Assembly (NCBI GenBank): GCA_017460835.1
Contig: JAFUAD010000046.1
Coordinates: forward strand, 62,001 to 126,000
Direction: 5' to 3'
Origin: Oscillospiraceae bacterium
Lineage (GTDB): Bacteria; Bacillota; Clostridia; Oscillospirales; Ruminococcaceae
DNA: 64,000 nucleotides
Both the position numbers and the translations under genes were made by a program. Positions 3,302 through 39,746 of the stretch are shown piece by piece (positions within the stretch are counted from its first letter, which is position 1; every line of letters begins with the position of its first letter). Under the pieces are notes generated by a model. It did no database searches. It saw nothing but the letters and a program-made list of their open reading frames with translations, and was not told where the DNA came from.

Positions 3302-4512
3302 GTTGATGCTCCTGTTTCGGGTATTTCGGTGCCGGTGACAGCCGCCGTGATGCTGCCCTCGCCGAGCCGGATCCGCAGCGTATCGCCCGCGTGCAGCTCC
3401 GATGCGCTGCGCACCAGCGTATCACCGTGATAAACGAGCGCATAGCCGCGCTGCAAAATTTTAACGGGGCTTGCGGCATCAAGCCTGCCGGCGGTCAGCT
3501 CCCACTGCTGTATTTTCTGCCGGTAGAGGCTGTTCCATGCATATTGCAGCCTTTGTTCTGCATGCTGAAGCTGCTCGCTCTGTGCCGCGACCCGGCTTCT
3601 GAGCGAGAGCCGTTCCAGCCGGAGCGTGCGCGTCTGCAAGTCCTGCGCCTTCTGCTGTATGATTCTCTCGGCTGCCCTGCGCATTCTTCCGCTCAGGGCT
3701 TCGATCTGCTCCGAGAGCGCGCCGATATCCGGTACGGCAAGCTCTGCCGCAGCGGAGGGCGTCGGGGCACGGAGGTCTGCGACCTCGTCCGCGATGCAGT
3801 GATCGGTCTCATGCCCGACGGCGCTGATGACCGGCACCGGCGAACGGAACACGGCATACGCGACCTCCTCGGACTGAAACGCCGAGAGGTCCTCATTTGA
3901 ACCGCCGCCTCTGCCCATGAGGATCACATCGCAGCCGTCCTCAGCGGCATTGCGCAGCGAGGCGGCAACGGATGCCGGGGCTGCATCTCCCTGCACCAGC
4001 GCAGGATAGATGCACACATTCCCGATCGGATAGCGGCGGCTCAGAATTTGCAGCATATCCTGCAAGGCAGCGCCGCTCCGCGAGGTGACAATGCCGATCT
4101 TTTTCGGCATCGGCGGCAGGGAACGCTTGCGCTCCGGGGCAAAGAACCCCAGTTCCGCGAGCTTCTGCCGGAGCTGCTGCAATGCCAGCGCCTGTGCGCC
4201 GAGCCCGTCCGGCTGCATATCCGTCACATTGATCTGGTAGGAGCCGTCCCGCTCATAGAGCGTCACAGTGCCCTGCACGATCATGTGCATGCCGTTCTGC
4301 GGCTGAAATTTCAGCCTGTCCGCATTGGAGCGGAACATGACGGCTTTGACGGTCGCCTCGGCATCGCGCAGGCTGAAATAGCAGTGACCGGAGCGGAAAT
4401 TCCGGGTAAAGTTTGCGATCTCGCCGCGGATTAAGACAGAGCGGAGATGTGCGTCCTCCTTCAGCAGAAAGGCGACATAGCGGTTGAGCTGACTGACGCT
4501 CAGGATCGACAT
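3298..4512 (-). CDS. xseA: Exodeoxyribonuclease VII large subunit
   Basis: 404 aa. An N-terminal OB-fold (SVSQLNRYVAFLLKED, then RGEIANFTRNFRSGH and YFSLRD; about residues 1-100) is followed by the catalytic domain (KKIGIVTSRSGAALQDMLQI, GRGGGSNEDLSAF, ISAVGHETD) and a long helical C-terminal region. It degrades single-stranded DNA to oligonucleotides. The reading frame is open 91 codons further upstream, but the ATG at 4512 has a GGAGATGGAGG ribosome-binding sequence and the family N-terminus; it overlaps the upstream gene by 13 bp. Confidence 0.94.
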   Translation of the reverse strand: MSILSVSQLNRYVAFLLKEDAHLRSVLIRGEIANFTRNFRSGHCYFSLRDAEATVKAVMFRSNADRLKFQPQNGMHMIVQGTVTLYERDGSYQINVTDMQPDGLGAQALALQQLRQKLAELGFFAPERKRSLPPMPKKIGIVTSRSGAALQDMLQILSRRYPIGNVCIYPALVQGDAAPASVAASLRNAAEDGCDVILMGRGGGSNEDLSAFQSEEVAYAVFRSPVPVISAVGHETDHCIADEVADLRAPTPSAAAELAVPDIGALSEQIEALSGRMRRAAERIIQQKAQDLQTRTLRLERLSLRSRVAAQSEQLQHAEQRLQYAWNSLYRQKIQQWELTAGRLDAASPVKILQRGYALVYHGDTLVRSASELHAGDTLRIRLGEGSITAAVTGTEIPETGAST

Positions 4513-5462
4513 GCCTCCATCTCCTTCCTTGCCGCGAAGATCGCAGTGCCGGCGGCGTTGTCGCTGGAAAACACCGGCTCTGCAAATGCGGTTTGCAGCG
4601 GTAATTGCCGCAGCGCATTCTGTATCAGCAGATCGGAGAGCACACCGCCTGCGTAGAGCACCGGCATGCTTCCGTTTTTTTCGATTGCGTCTTTGGTCAT
4701 CGCGAGCAGCACCGCCGAAACGGAATTCAGGCAGTAGCGCGCGATCTCTGCGGGCTCCGAACCCTTTTTGAGCATGGCCCCGCACTGGTTCTGAAGCCCG
4801 GAAAGCGAGCAGCAGCCATCCTTCAGCGTGACGCGCATATGCGCCTTTGTGTCACTTTGCATCGCGAGCGCTTCGAGCTCCGGGCCGCAGGGAAATTTCA
4901 GGCCGAGCATCAGCCCGACGCGGTCGATCGCCTGTCCCGCCTTCAGATCGGAGGAGGCAGAGACCGGCTCAATCCGCAGAACATCCTCCCGGTCGGGCGT
5001 GCAGCGCACACAGTCCGTTGTGCCGCCGCTGACATGGAATGCCAGAAACGGCTGCGCCGGCTGATCGAGCCATGAGAGGCAGTCCGCGGAATAGAGCGCC
5101 GCGAGAATATGTCCCATCTGGTGCGAGGTGCGGTGCAGCGGAATCTGATTTGCCGCCGCGAGCATCCGCGCCGCGCCGGTTCCCGCGAGAAAGCAGGGCA
5201 TATAGGAGCCCGCCGCATTCCGCGGTGCATCGGATACGCCGACTGCATCCGGGAGCAGCTTTCCGCCGCAGTCATCTGCGAGCAGCTCCAGCAGCTCCGG
5301 AAGCTGCCGCACATGATGAAACACCGCATCGCTCTGCCGCAGCCCCGCTTGTCCCTCCGGAACAGGCAGGAGCCTTTTCCGCTGGAGCACCGTGCCGGCT
5401 TCGGTGTCATACCATGCGCATGAGGTGGTATAATTGCTGGTGTCCAGTCCGAGCAGCTTCAT
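4500..5462 (-). CDS. Kae1/TsaD-like (peptidase M22 family) protein
   Basis: 320 aa, ASKHA-fold protein of the Kae1/TsaD superfamily. The N-terminus LGLDTSNYTTSCAWYD and the metal-binding HQMGH (residues 114-118) match the family, as does VSGGTTD. True TsaD makes the t6A tRNA modification; this version, lying between nusB and xseA, is a clostridial paralogue usually called peptidase M22 or glycoprotease, and its role is not established. It is coupled to nusB by an ATGA overlap. I would not name it tsaD without seeing the second copy in the genome. Confidence 0.8.
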   Translation of the reverse strand: MKLLGLDTSNYTTSCAWYDTEAGTVLQRKRLLPVPEGQAGLRQSDAVFHHVRQLPELLELLADDCGGKLLPDAVGVSDAPRNAAGSYMPCFLAGTGAARMLAAANQIPLHRTSHQMGHILAALYSADCLSWLDQPAQPFLAFHVSGGTTDCVRCTPDREDVLRIEPVSASSDLKAGQAIDRVGLMLGLKFPCGPELEALAMQSDTKAHMRVTLKDGCCSLSGLQNQCGAMLKKGSEPAEIARYCLNSVSAVLLAMTKDAIEKNGSMPVLYAGGVLSDLLIQNALRQLPLQTAFAEPVFSSDNAAGTAIFAARKEMEACRS

Positions 5463-5887
5463 GATCTGCTGCCGTCCTGACGGTTCAGCTCTTTGGTATA
5501 GGCGCCGAGCAGCCCGTTGACGAAACGGATATCCTCCTCGGAGGCGGTATAGGTTTCGGTCAGGATGACGGCCTCGGAGACTGCGGCATTTGCCGGCGTG
5601 CCGTCATCATAGAGAATCTCATACATCGCAAGGCGCAGGATCGTCAGATTCAGCTTCGGAATCCGGTTGAGGCTGCGCTTCGGGCTGAGCCGCTGAATCG
5701 TTTCGTCAATGGTATCAAGGTGCGCAAGCGTTCCCCCGACCAGCTCCTTCACTGCGTCATTGACGATGATCTCGTCGATCTCCTCCGCGATGGCATAGAG
5801 CTCCTCGATGGGGTCGTCGCGCAGGGATTTTTCAAACAGCAGCTTCATAGCACTGTCGCGGATTTCACGTCTGTTCGGATTTGCCAT
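5459..5887 (-). CDS. nusB: Transcription antitermination factor NusB
   Basis: 142 aa, all-helical NusB fold: RREIRDSAMKLLFE at the N-terminus and PKLNLTILRLAMYEILYDDG, a strongly conserved NusB block, in the C-terminal half. NusB with NusE (ribosomal protein S10) binds boxA in rRNA leader transcripts and supports antitermination. The ATG at 5887 with AAAGGAA upstream was chosen over a longer frame that would run into asp23. Confidence 0.93.
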   Translation of the reverse strand: MANPNRREIRDSAMKLLFEKSLRDDPIEELYAIAEEIDEIIVNDAVKELVGGTLAHLDTIDETIQRLSPKRSLNRIPKLNLTILRLAMYEILYDDGTPANAAVSEAVILTETYTASEEDIRFVNGLLGAYTKELNRQDGSRS

Positions 5888-33846: not shown

Positions 33847-33875
33847 TTGACAAATCCGTCTGACAGTGATATAAT
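33847..33875 (+). promoter_or_regulatory. Consensus sigma-A promoter of the TerD-like gene
   Basis: -35 TTGACA (33847-33852), 17-bp spacer, -10 TATAAT (33870-33875): a perfect match. The leader is about 58 nt. Codons upstream of 33937 that are in frame with the gene lie inside this promoter and leader and are not used. Confidence 0.85.
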
Positions 33876-33939
33876 GATAAGCTATCCGCTGAATCCAAAC
33901 AGGCCGCAGCGGAAATTTTACCGATCACGGAGGCGCATG

Positions 33940-35949
33940 ATGCTTTACGAACAACTGCTTTTCTCCGAGCTCCGGCTCGCTGCTGTTTCCTTTGACACGG
34001 CGCCGCTGTGCGAGGAAAACCTGATCAAGGCGATGACGGTCAATGAGGAGCTGCTCGCGCTTGGCTATACCCTTGCCCCGAAGGACATTGTCGTGCTCGC
34101 AAAATCGGACGGACTCACCGGCTTTGCCGACCGGATCCGCAGCGATATCGGCGATGTGAAGGCCGCGCCGATGTACCCCGATTTCCCTTCGCAGGTCATG
34201 GAGACGGATGAAGCGGTATTCCGCTTTCACCAGCTCCTGCACTATCTTTCGACCTACGGCGTTGAGGAGATCACCGGGATGCCGGTCACAAGGGGGTGGC
34301 TGCCGGACATGCAGCAAACCGAAAAGCTCGAGCCCGACGATACGCTGCTCAGTGCCAAGACGCTCGCGCTGATTGACCGCAGCGAGCAGTACATCACCCC
34401 GTACCGGAGGATCATGACCAAAACTGAGCGCGTGACCGACAAGGAGCTCATGATGATCCGGGAGTGCGCAGAGCAGCTTCCTGCGGAGGCGCTCGCCGGC
34501 GTGACGGTGACCTTCAAGCAGAATCTGCTGCCCGTATTCCAGAGTATTTTTGCGGACGGCGTGCTGTCATCGGCTCAGAAGCTCATCTGTCTGCACGCGA
34601 TTTGCCAGCATACCGGCGATGTCTGGAAGTGCATGGACTATGCGCTCACCAGAACGCGCTTCCATTTCAGAACATCGCAGAAGCGTCTGATCGTGAAGCT
34701 GCTGGAAAGCTACCCGATCGGGGATTTCCGCGAAAACCTCGTGATCTCCGGCAAAAAGCGGGAGCGCACGATTCTGATGCTCCAGTATCTTGATTTCAAC
34801 ATGTACTCCCGCAAGCCCGAGTATGCGGCGGCAGTCGCAGAGCTCCGCGCAGGCAGACTGCGTTCTTGGGAATCGCAGGTCAAGCGGATGGTCGCGGAGA
34901 AAGCGCCGGAGGTGCTCGAAGTCTATGCGGCGCGCCCCGGCATGATGCTCCGGCACCTGACCTACCTCATGCGGAACGGCTATTCGCTGACGGATATCTT
35001 CTCCGCGATCGCACCCAATGCCGCGAGGCTGAAAACGCAGACGCTCGTGAGCCTTGTGTCCTTCTTCTCGCGGGATGAGGCAAATGAGCTGCCGGAAAGC
35101 CGCTATCAGGAGGCAGTCCAGCTCCGGCTCATGCTCCGGCAGCTTCTCCGGCTCAGGCTCTCTGCCAATGAGACCCCGCTGAAGCAGAAAAAGGTCTGCA
35201 TCCGCATGCCGGAGTATGACCTTAGCCTTTCGACGGTCAGCACCGGAGACAAATCTTCGGAGGGCGGCTATATCCGCTCGGGCATTGCCTACCGGATTCC
35301 GGAGAATGCCCGGTACATCCGCTTCTTTGTCTACTGGAATGACAAGGAGCGCGTGGATGTTGACCTGCACGGTGCGGCCTTCTCGACGGAGGGCGAGGAA
35401 ATTGATATCGGCTGGAACGCGAAATTCAAGTCCGGCGAGCTGGTGTTCAGCGGCGATATCACGCATTCCGATGCCGCAGAATACATCGACCTCGATCTGG
35501 AAACCGCGAAAAAGACCCTGCGCCATGTCAGCCTGAACATCAATCTTTACAGCGGCCATGATTCCTTCCGCGAGATCGACGAGTGCTTTGTCGGCATTAT
35601 GGCAGTTTCCAAAACCGGAACGGACATCAAGCTCTATGACCCGAAAAACTGCTTCTTTACGCATTATCTCACGGGCGATTACAGAACGCTCAACTACGGG
35701 TACATTGATGTGCAGAACCGCGTGCTGATCTTTGACGGCAAGCCCGATCCGTCCCGGAGCTATTACGGCACGGCGCCGCGGAACAATGCATTCAGTCTCC
35801 GCGAATATCTGGAGATTCTGTTTGCGGCACAGGGCGCCGAGGCGGTCTCCGAGCCCGGTCAGGCGGATGTGATTCTGGTCATGGGCAAGCCCGCCGCAGA
35901 AAACGAGCTGAGTCTCATCGACAGCAATTTCTTTATGGAATCCGAGTAA
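33940..35949 (+). CDS. Large protein with C-terminal TerD-like domain
   Basis: 669 aa, no signal peptide or membrane helix. Residues 1-430 are largely helical and unrecognised (TSQKRLIVKLLESYPIGDF, then GKKRERTILMLQYLD). Residues about 450-570 resemble the Ca-binding TerD fold of tellurite/stress proteins: RFFVYWNDKERVDVDLHGAAF, SGDITHSDAAEYIDLDLE, DECFVGIMAVSKTG. The final 90 residues look alpha/beta. TerD proteins are linked to chemical and phage stress, but mechanism is unsettled. The second of two adjacent ATGs (33937, 33940) sits 6 nt from GGAGG. Next to it lies the RNA unit at 35990. Confidence 0.7.
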   Translation: MLYEQLLFSELRLAAVSFDTAPLCEENLIKAMTVNEELLALGYTLAPKDIVVLAKSDGLTGFADRIRSDIGDVKAAPMYPDFPSQVMETDEAVFRFHQLLHYLSTYGVEEITGMPVTRGWLPDMQQTEKLEPDDTLLSAKTLALIDRSEQYITPYRRIMTKTERVTDKELMMIRECAEQLPAEALAGVTVTFKQNLLPVFQSIFADGVLSSAQKLICLHAICQHTGDVWKCMDYALTRTRFHFRTSQKRLIVKLLESYPIGDFRENLVISGKKRERTILMLQYLDFNMYSRKPEYAAAVAELRAGRLRSWESQVKRMVAEKAPEVLEVYAARPGMMLRHLTYLMRNGYSLTDIFSAIAPNAARLKTQTLVSLVSFFSRDEANELPESRYQEAVQLRLMLRQLLRLRLSANETPLKQKKVCIRMPEYDLSLSTVSTGDKSSEGGYIRSGIAYRIPENARYIRFFVYWNDKERVDVDLHGAAFSTEGEEIDIGWNAKFKSGELVFSGDITHSDAAEYIDLDLETAKKTLRHVSLNINLYSGHDSFREIDECFVGIMAVSKTGTDIKLYDPKNCFFTHYLTGDYRTLNYGYIDVQNRVLIFDGKPDPSRSYYGTAPRNNAFSLREYLEILFAAQGAEAVSEPGQADVILVMGKPAAENELSLIDSNFFMESE

Positions 35950-35954
35950 ACCGC

Positions 35955-35983
35955 TTGATTTTTTTGCGGCAATCTGCTATAAT
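35955..35983 (+). promoter_or_regulatory. Sigma-A promoter of the structured RNA
   Basis: -35 TTGATT (35955-35960), 17-bp spacer, -10 TATAAT (35978-35983). It starts 6 bp after the TerD-like stop codon, giving a predicted transcript start near 35990 with no open reading frame of note downstream. Confidence 0.8.
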
Positions 35984-35989
35984 AGCACT

Positions 35990-36378
35990 ACAGCCAAGCG
36001 GAATCCTGCACGTTTTCGGCAGCTTCCTTTTCATGACGCTGAACTTATCCCCGATCGGGGATAAGCATAATGTGCAGGACATTGTTCGCTGCCGGATTGC
36101 TTGGCACGGCGCATACAGGCGTTGCATCGGGCGGCAGTATCATGCTGCCTTGTGACATCCTTTTATCCGTTGAATAAACGGTTCGATGAGTTTGCCCGAT
36201 GCAGTCTGTCACAGGATAGCCTGTATCATATTGTAAGCGTTCTGCGCCGGAGTGCCCGATAGGGCGGATGATGACTTCCTTTTCTCTGAGGTGTGTTAAG
36301 ACCCGGCGTGCTGAGTTTGTCATCAGATTGCTTACAAAGAACCGGTGCGGATGTAACAGTCCGCACCGGTTTTGTTTT
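35990..36378 (+). ncRNA. Structured noncoding RNA with three pseudoknotted modules
   Basis: About 390 nt between a sigma-A promoter and an intrinsic terminator. Hand folding gives three tandem modules. Module 1: outer stem 35993-35999/36099-36105; helix A 36004-36011/36072-36079; helix B 36017-36023/36088-36094, interleaved with A; hairpin 36044-36065. Module 2: outer 36113-36120/36219-36226; A 36123-36132/36194-36203; B 36151-36157/36207-36213. Module 3: outer 36231-36238/36330-36337; A 36245-36250/36303-36308; B 36269-36275/36319-36325. Every listed pair is perfectly complementary. In each module (T)TCCTTTT directly follows the 5' strand of B (36024, 36158, 36276). It does not resemble tmRNA, RNase P, SRP or 6S RNA as I know them. 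Confidence 0.82.
36340..36378 (+). terminator. Intrinsic terminator of the structured RNA
   Basis: A 12-bp perfect stem, AACCGGTGCGGA (36340-36351) with its complement at 36360-36371, an 8-nt loop, and TTTTGTTTT after it. Strong Rho-independent terminator. Confidence 0.92.
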
Positions 36379-38568: not shown

Positions 38569-38615
38569 AAAAGCACAGGGGGAACTGACATAATCTAACA
38601 GAAAGGATGAGAATT

Positions 38616-39746
38616 ATGACAAAAAGAAACAGAACAGCAGCCCTTGTATCCGCAGCGATGATGCTCTGCACCGTTCCGCAGCTTCCGGCCTATGCGCTGG
38701 ATCCGGTTCCGGCCGCGCCGGACTGGGTTCCGGCAAGCTATGCCGAGGCCGTTTCGTTCACAAACGAATACGGCATGACCCGTGTCGATGACGGCTTTAT
38801 CTGCATTGTCCGGATTCAGGAGCCGGACAATGACCGCACATATGATGTGCAGTACAGCGGTATTCCGAATTATGATGAGGTCTCGGATACGCTGTATTCC
38901 TTTGAAGCGCCAGAGGATCCGGGCGAAAATGACGGAAGCGAGGATTACTGGAAGCGGCGCAGCGAGTATGAAGACTATCAGCGGAATATTGAATATGCAG
39001 GCGAGGATTTTATTGCGCATATTCCGAAGTATGAGGTCATTGTCGTGATGCCGGAATCCGTCGGCGAGCTGAAGGTTGAGCTCCGGGCGTTTCAGAAAGC
39101 ACTTGCTGATCCGTATGTGCAGGAGCTGACCTTTGCATATGACGGCAGAACCTTGGAGGAAACGGATCTTCGCGCGTGGCTGCCGGATTCCGTCAAGGAA
39201 TACAATATTTATACGAGGGAAAACGGCACGGTTTCCGTTCATGACGATCTGATCGCGGTCTGCGCGGACTGCAATTACAGTACGGGCGCGAAGCTGACGG
39301 TCGGGCTGAACGGCGCAGAGTACGAGCAGGTGACAAAGATGTATGTTTCAGAAAACCGTCTGCTCCCGGTTCCGATCGCCGGAGAAACCAGCCGGATTGT
39401 GGAGGTGTACCGTCCTGCGGGCGATGTGCAGATCACAGTGTTTGTCGGTCGGGAGTGGAGTCTCGATTATCCTGATGATGAGACCGCGAAGATGATCGAG
39501 GTTCAGCCGGACGGCAGCCTGACCGTGAAGGAGCCGGTTGCGGGCGATCTGAATGCCGACGGGTATCTCGGAATCGCCGATGCCGTGCTGCTGAGCAAAT
39601 TCCTGTATGCAGAGCAGGAGCTGAATGCCGCGCAGATCATGATTGCCGACCTGAGCGGCGACCGGCATGTGAATGCGGTCGATCTGACGGTGATGAAGCG
39701 GGCGCTGTTTTCCGAAATCATCCGGATCGACGACCCGGTTATCTGA
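38616..39746 (+). CDS. Secreted dockerin protein of unknown function
   Basis: 376 aa. Signal peptide (residues 1-28, TAALVSAAMMLCTVPQLPAY), an unrecognised domain starting PASYAEAVSFTNEYGMTRVD, a middle part with AWLPDSVKEYNIYTRENGTV and CADCNYSTGAKL, then a type I dockerin at about 310-367 (DLNADGYLGIADAVLLSKFL; DLSGDRHVNAVDLTVMKRAL). No catalytic motif is visible, so it may be a structural or binding cellulosome component. From memory, Ruminococcus genomes carry many dockerin proteins of this N-terminal type. The ATG at 38616 is spaced properly from AAAGGA, unlike the ATG at 38607. Confidence 0.82.
   Translation: MTKRNRTAALVSAAMMLCTVPQLPAYALDPVPAAPDWVPASYAEAVSFTNEYGMTRVDDGFICIVRIQEPDNDRTYDVQYSGIPNYDEVSDTLYSFEAPEDPGENDGSEDYWKRRSEYEDYQRNIEYAGEDFIAHIPKYEVIVVMPESVGELKVELRAFQKALADPYVQELTFAYDGRTLEETDLRAWLPDSVKEYNIYTRENGTVSVHDDLIAVCADCNYSTGAKLTVGLNGAEYEQVTKMYVSENRLLPVPIAGETSRIVEVYRPAGDVQITVFVGREWSLDYPDDETAKMIEVQPDGSLTVKEPVAGDLNADGYLGIADAVLLSKFLYAEQELNAAQIMIADLSGDRHVNAVDLTVMKRALFSEIIRIDDPVI

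Follow-up and report, generated by a model that had tools for sequence, protein, structure and literature searches.

The stretch of DNA considered here (the window) comprises 64,000 nt of an Oscillospiraceae bacterium (assembly GCA_017460835.1, contig JAFUAD010000046.1, positions 62,001-126,000, forward strand), and its feature of interest is a structured RNA element of three tandem modules that directly follows a protein-coding gene, referred to below as the partner gene. This gene occupies positions 33937-35949 on the plus strand and encodes a protein of about 670 residues with a helical region predicted to be Ro60-like (TROVE-like) and a TerD domain; the open reading frame (ORF) is listed from a TTG at 33847, while homologues start near 33937. 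Directly 3′ of its stop codon (35949), a promoter of the form TTGATT-17-TATAAT (35955-35983, plus strand), matching 10 of the 12 consensus positions, opens a span of ~390 nt that closes with a terminator-like stem of 15 pairs followed by GTTTTATTAT (36338-36373, plus strand). Both signals are calls of consensus scans only, and both had been proposed in an earlier note written from the sequence by itself. Several other places in genomes of the genus match the promoter word (35955-35985) and the terminator (36338-36378) at 86-93% identity, as if these were reused. The ORFs that cross the element (66 aa on the plus strand, 124 aa on the minus strand, and others) were not taken as genes because the pairing is kept in relatives and the module lengths vary.

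Between promoter and terminator, each module spans ~110 nt, all on the plus strand, and consists of an outer stem O that encloses two helices with interleaved strands in the order A B A′ B′, that is, a pseudoknot. Module 1 (35993-36105) is formed by helices O1 (35993-35999/36099-36105), A1 (36004-36014/36069-36079, with one G-U pair), and B1 (36017-36023/36088-36094), and it holds an extra inverted repeat of 11 bp (36044-36065). Module 2 (36113-36226) is formed by O2 (36113-36120/36219-36226), A2 (36123-36132/36194-36203), and B2 (36151-36157/36207-36213), and module 3 (36231-36337) by O3 (36231-36238/36330-36337), A3 (36245-36250/36303-36308, to which two G-U pairs are added outward), and B3 (36269-36275/36319-36325). 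A core tract reads TTCCTTTTC in module 1 (36024-36032, directly 3′ of the 5′ strand of helix B) and in module 3 (36276-36284), and ATCCTTTTA in module 2 (36157-36165). All nine helix pairs that the earlier note had arranged in three A B A′ B′ modules are present at these positions, as are its UCCUUUU tracts at 36024, 36158, and 36276. The minimum free energy of the element has a z-score of −6.5 against 100 shuffles, none of which is as good. No Rfam family matches the element at its gathering threshold, in agreement with the note's view of an undescribed RNA; weak Rfam matches in the region (xerDC, archaeal snoRNA, and CsrB) were dismissed as far below threshold, and the same search on 11 relatives gave only two matches (tRNA and L10 leader), neither on a module.

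A DNA search of the genus recovered the element in several genomes, as two, three, four, or five modules, and the fixed points among 23 aligned modules are GCG, TCCTTTT, and GAT.GC. A module scanner, run on 71 loci found via the neighboring protein with one letter-shuffled copy per locus as control, detected modules in many of these loci (top shuffled score 20; matches counted from 21). A covariance model (R1), built on 41 modules and given no pairs other than O and B, reached 129 matches at E ≤ 1, spread over 72 sources, with diverged modules of ~75-195 nt, and scored the three window modules at 50.5, 60.4, and 59.0 bits, respectively. The 127 rows with E-values up to 0.0081 all lie on the gene strand: three are those of the window, three belong to a partial locus (L094), and 121 stand wholly before or after the gene. 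The other two rows have E-values of 0.46 and 0.55. Since relatives keep the module plan, the plan is more than chance.

Over 109 matches, O and B are paired in 97.1% of cells against 24-52% in slid controls, and double changes occur at 12 of the 14 O/B pairs, a count that 44 of 500 shuffles reach while none reaches the other four measures; the modules of A4/R1 were preselected on the outer stem and helix B, so these pair counts are biased towards them. A less biased test of helix B used 23 modules picked by tract and outer stem only: every one forms all five pairs, and none of 20,000 permutations reaches the observed mean. Helix A is also tested with less bias, as it is not part of R1, though it had a share in the earlier scanner score. 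In 95 non-redundant modules (reduced from 114 of the 129 R1 rows), stems with their own partner score 19.6 on average versus 11.3 when mispaired, with no permuted mean out of 10,000 exceeding 12.6; 66% of the true stems are above the 95th percentile of mispaired stems, and in 37 modules no other partner scores higher than the own one. The A strands differ widely in sequence between modules, and the pseudoknot is therefore maintained by compensatory change. Support extends to all three helices, the interleaved pair A and B among them, and the RNA element is real and well conserved, with no counterpart among Rfam families. The proposal in the earlier note of duplicated pseudoknotted modules with their structure kept is thus borne out by relatives that retain the pairing, and helix complementarity, whose loss in homologues the note had named as a possible refutation, is preserved for both B and A.

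Two points go beyond that note, namely the element's close association with the upstream gene and its connection to Y RNAs. Among the 67 loci whose gene is near-complete (the 71 loci minus the partial genes L094, L112, L120, and L121), 63 have modules no farther than 430 nt from the partner gene, a count that admits weak matches down to E = 0.0081, and none has them on both sides of it. They are downstream in 29 loci, 26 of which have two to five modules, and upstream in 34 loci, 30 of which have one; in these 34, a gap of 26-194 nt separates the end of the nearest module from the point where the matched protein region begins. By a loose, uncontrolled pattern, 21 of the 29 downstream loci have a promoter-like string between the gene end and the first module; the one at L074 looks spurious. 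As for the four loci without local matches, the genomes of three (L062, L073, and L075) have modules outside the fetched stretch, and the fourth (L110) gives two weak R1 matches with filters off (E = 0.015 and 0.019).

At the genome level, protein and RNA were found in the same 11 of 30 genomes of the genus and in the same 9 of 297 genomes of the family. The 322 distinct genomes of the two samples comprise 17 with both, 305 with neither, and none with only one (Fisher p = 1.3e-28, a value that assumes independent genomes and is overstated because the genomes are related). A sample of the order, searched for the RNA only, contained R1 matches in 1 of 394 genomes, the window's own; R1 searches of samples above 40 genomes used stricter filters, which lose weak matches. 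Gene-bearing genomes also carry unlinked arrays, one of four modules (L142, 6181-6650) and one of a single module (L143, 1179-1287), so that the RNA is more than just a segment of the partner gene's mRNA. One of these two adjoins a PEPCK-like ORF (named by eye). Gene and three modules occur together on a contig from a viral collection, beside an mnmE-like and a recombinase-like ORF (both named by eye). Gene and module are also present in the record of Sarcina sp. DSM 11001 (L108). A second copy of the array lies at L055 (6511-6735); by eye, it has a separate promoter and terminator, and its third module is reduced in size.

The helical region of the partner protein (residues 151-412, positions 34387-35172) has Rsr, Ro60, and TROVE structures as its highest PDB matches, and Rsr and Ro60 are its best fold matches outside TerD; this structural comparison gives moderate support to a predicted TROVE fold. 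Residues 453-616 (positions 35293-35784) have a TerD fold. Neither the Pfam TROVE model (PF05731) nor the NCBIfam Rsr models match the window protein, 10 longer homologues, or a set of 15 homologues. Neither Pfam, at threshold, nor PADLOC has a match for the partner protein, phmmer and profile searches with it against PDB sequences found nothing, and its profile gave no match to the one Clostridia TROVE protein it was compared with. The NCBIfam model NF041916 (MXAN_6230/SCO0854 family) is matched by the partner (E = 1.4e-19) and by the homologues of L170 (4e-27) and L196 (3e-120), all below its 600-bit cut-off, the best stretch of the window protein being profile positions 549-700 of 842. A full-text search for the locus names SCO0854 and MXAN_6230 returned no paper, and among the papers listed by other searches none deals with a TROVE-TerD protein and an RNA. 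In homologues at L086, L106, L109, L113, L117, and other loci, the helical region is separated from TerD by insertions of ~55-270 residues, and some give weak matches of the coiled-coil type. The protein alignments exclude L033 on account of its in-frame stops.

The core tract directly 3′ of helix B could be placed in 94 of the 95 non-redundant modules. It fits WUMCUUYU in 85, the other nine deviating at the first letter only, and no variation is seen in columns 2, 4, 5, 6, and 8. At column 3, 60 modules have C and 34 have A (the UACUUUU form); at column 7, 86 have U and 8 have C. An A follows at the ninth position in 77, and four modules have exactly AUCCUUCUA. The same core occurs in RNAs that carry a YrlA-type domain. 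These sister RNAs were found through five divergent homologues that the protein profile detects among 200 genomes of the family of G827. An alignment of four of the five (A7) matches the A3 protein profile with a probability of 99.1% (E = 2e-18 over 547 columns, columns 44-648). All four loci contain units of the form O5-AGCUA-B-UUAYUUC...B′-O3, eight in total, of which six have an exact (A/G)AUAUC after B′, and the tract directly 3′ of helix B is mostly UUACUUCU. T-arm, acceptor, and D-arm sequences were recognized by eye, in permuted order, upstream of three of the four homologues (G1002, G844, and G1017), and at two of the four loci the best Rfam match is to YrlA, with 47 bits (E = 3.1e-8) and 45 bits (E = 1e-7), short of the gathering score of 69. 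The fifth homologue (G1036; A3 profile E = 5e-20, NF041916 E = 3e-120) is followed on its 3′ side by a YrlA-like RNA and two more units, all three with the core AUCCUUCUA. G934, with the top YrlA score of the 200 genomes, has two units beside the interrupted start of a partner-type gene (by eye), a short and open gene start adjoining an IS21-type transposase gene. Altogether 11 of 13 sister units fit WUMCUUYU, and both exceptions, from G1017, read UUAUUUC; the units were picked by an AGCTA plus tract pattern, and for some several B′ candidates are possible.

Of the 200 genomes, 191 match the YrlA model at E ≤ 1, none of them above the cut-off; as 11 of 14 control genomes match as well, this is mostly background. 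The 12 best places comprise four overlaps with tRNA genes, three places beside RtcB, one beside a DUF2828/DUF7788 protein, and four beside partner homologues (G934 by eye). The last four, YrlA-like RNAs with permuted tRNA-like domains, are at L178 (497-600), L177 (628-695), L196 (3720-3825), and L191 (2802-2922; the interrupted start, by eye). The places adjoining RtcB RNA ligase genes are at L193 (3813-3880), L194 (3852-3919), and L197 (3675-3785), and the one at L192 (3855-3950) is next to a DUF2828/DUF7788 protein (4098-5600), possibly another Ro60-like partner. Two Erysipelotrichaceae loci (L090 and L110) show, by eye, the pseudoknot plan enclosing a T-arm-like hairpin, with weak R1 scores; such a hairpin occurs in 5 of 95 window-type modules versus a mean of 0.53 (maximum 3) in mononucleotide shuffles. 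The sister loci can be regarded as natural intermediates.

Y RNAs are small RNAs with which Ro60 proteins work together in RNA quality control. We read the window RNA as Y-RNA-like mainly because the same core form, helix, and protein family are found with RNAs that have a YrlA domain and with RNAs that do not; it is quite probable that the element is a pseudoknotted, multi-module, Y-RNA-like partner of the upstream Ro60-like/TerD protein, and the scaffold or protein-binding role guessed in the earlier note counts as supported to the same degree. By test the RNA is not a member of YrlA, and its working like a Y RNA is a matter of argument. A noncoding RNA gene would give rise to the three-module array as the RNA half of a ribonucleoprotein (RNP), with the Ro60-like/TerD protein as the other half. 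Judging from conservation, the basal part (outer stem, conserved GUU/GAU internal element, helix B, and WUMCUUYU tract) most likely docks on the predicted HEAT-like ring of the protein, whereas the pseudoknotted upper part, by analogy, may gate or recruit. Arrays of two to five modules might bring several copies of the protein together or be processed into individual Y RNAs, and the particle may have a role in RNA quality control. We lean slightly towards the broader joint claim that these loci represent a new Ro60-type RNP branch in gut and rumen Bacillota, in which a Ro60-like ring is fused to the stress-linked TerD and sits on pseudoknotted Y RNA arrays, the pseudoknot having replaced the tRNA-like domain and one transcript organizing several rings. 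R1 itself gives the sister RNAs no significant score, and in the family of G827 it matches 1 of 200 genomes where the protein profile matches 6, the extra five homologues being divergent and without this type of RNA.

Several other explanations were weighed. The modules could act in cis only, as a leader or 3′ untranslated region through which the encoded protein, bound to the pseudoknots, regulates its own gene, without any RNA acting in trans; an RNA-binding protein could well autoregulate, and the short distance from module to protein region in the 34 upstream loci makes a leader role possible there. We consider this rather unlikely overall, given the 29 loci with the array downstream, 21 of them with the promoter-like string (from the loose, uncontrolled pattern) before the first module, and the unlinked arrays with no gene alongside. 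A toxin-antitoxin arrangement of type III, with a tandem pseudoknot RNA inhibiting the adjacent protein, would account for pseudoknots next to a protein gene and for the close pairing of the two. The RNAs of that class are short, near-identical tandem repeats before the toxin gene, whereas the modules here are longer and diverged, follow the gene in the window as in the other downstream loci, and accompany a protein with no toxin-family match and with Ro60-type and TerD folds as its best; this explanation appears very improbable.

The earlier note had also suggested that the pyrimidine tracts pair with AAAGGA-type ribosome-binding sites, which would make the RNA a trans-acting antisense regulator or sponge. 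UCCUUUU does resemble the anti-Shine-Dalgarno sequence, lies outside the nine helices, and occurs once per module. Pairing of this kind is disfavored because 34 of the 94 modules have A in place of the needed C and because the tract of the sister RNAs is mostly UUACUUCU and tied to helix B; moreover, no genome among the 322 has the RNA without the partner protein. We regard such a regulator as hardly credible, and a structural or protein-contact motif seems to fit the core better. Elsewhere in the window, a dockerin type I domain protein is encoded at 38607-39746.

Among the closest known systems to compare with the proposed Y-RNA-like partner is YrlA (RF02553). YrlA lies beside a gene of Ro60-like fold and the window RNA beside one for which such a fold is predicted, both RNAs close with a two-part basal stem that is formed by their ends and holds a conserved internal element or loop, more than one unit per locus occurs, and some of the sister RNAs carry the T-arm/acceptor/D-arm domain. 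Neither RF02553 nor another Y RNA family matches the window region (E ≤ 5) or module L105 (E ≤ 10), and no YrlA or tRNA family match indicates a tRNA-like domain in the window RNA; the full domain is found in sister RNAs only, and in the window the interleaved helix A makes a pseudoknot instead. Judging from the fold matches and from the YrlA-like RNAs beside homologues, the partner may belong to the Ro60 family. The top fold matches of its helical region are the proteins of Rsr/Ro60 RNPs (such as Deinococcus Rsr with Y RNA and PNPase), from which the partner differs in having no detectable TROVE sequence signal and in that its helical region is followed by TerD, in the place taken in Ro60 by a vWA domain. 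The MXAN_6230/SCO0854 family is likewise matched by the partner and its divergent homologues, though below the cut-off. In passages of PMC4030889, the Y RNA stem is described as binding the outer face of the Ro60 ring while the loops recruit other proteins, and part of PMC8394870 has the tRNA-like domain of YrlA joining Rsr to PNPase. According to sections of PMC7790460, YrlA is encoded with rsr, in some bacteria also with rtcBA, and few bacteria have served for studies of Ro60/Y RNA particles; the gene-RNA neighborhood found here resembles the rsr-yrlBA-rtcBA operon described there. TerD proteins are regarded, in portions of PMC7824862 and PMC7159879, as ligand-binding parts of stress and conflict systems, and the present loci would link Y RNA biology to them. 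A second architecture, with pseudoknots in place of the tRNA mimic of YrlA and one to five modules per locus, would further help to tell apart the Y RNA parts that Ro60 binding requires and those that are free to adapt.
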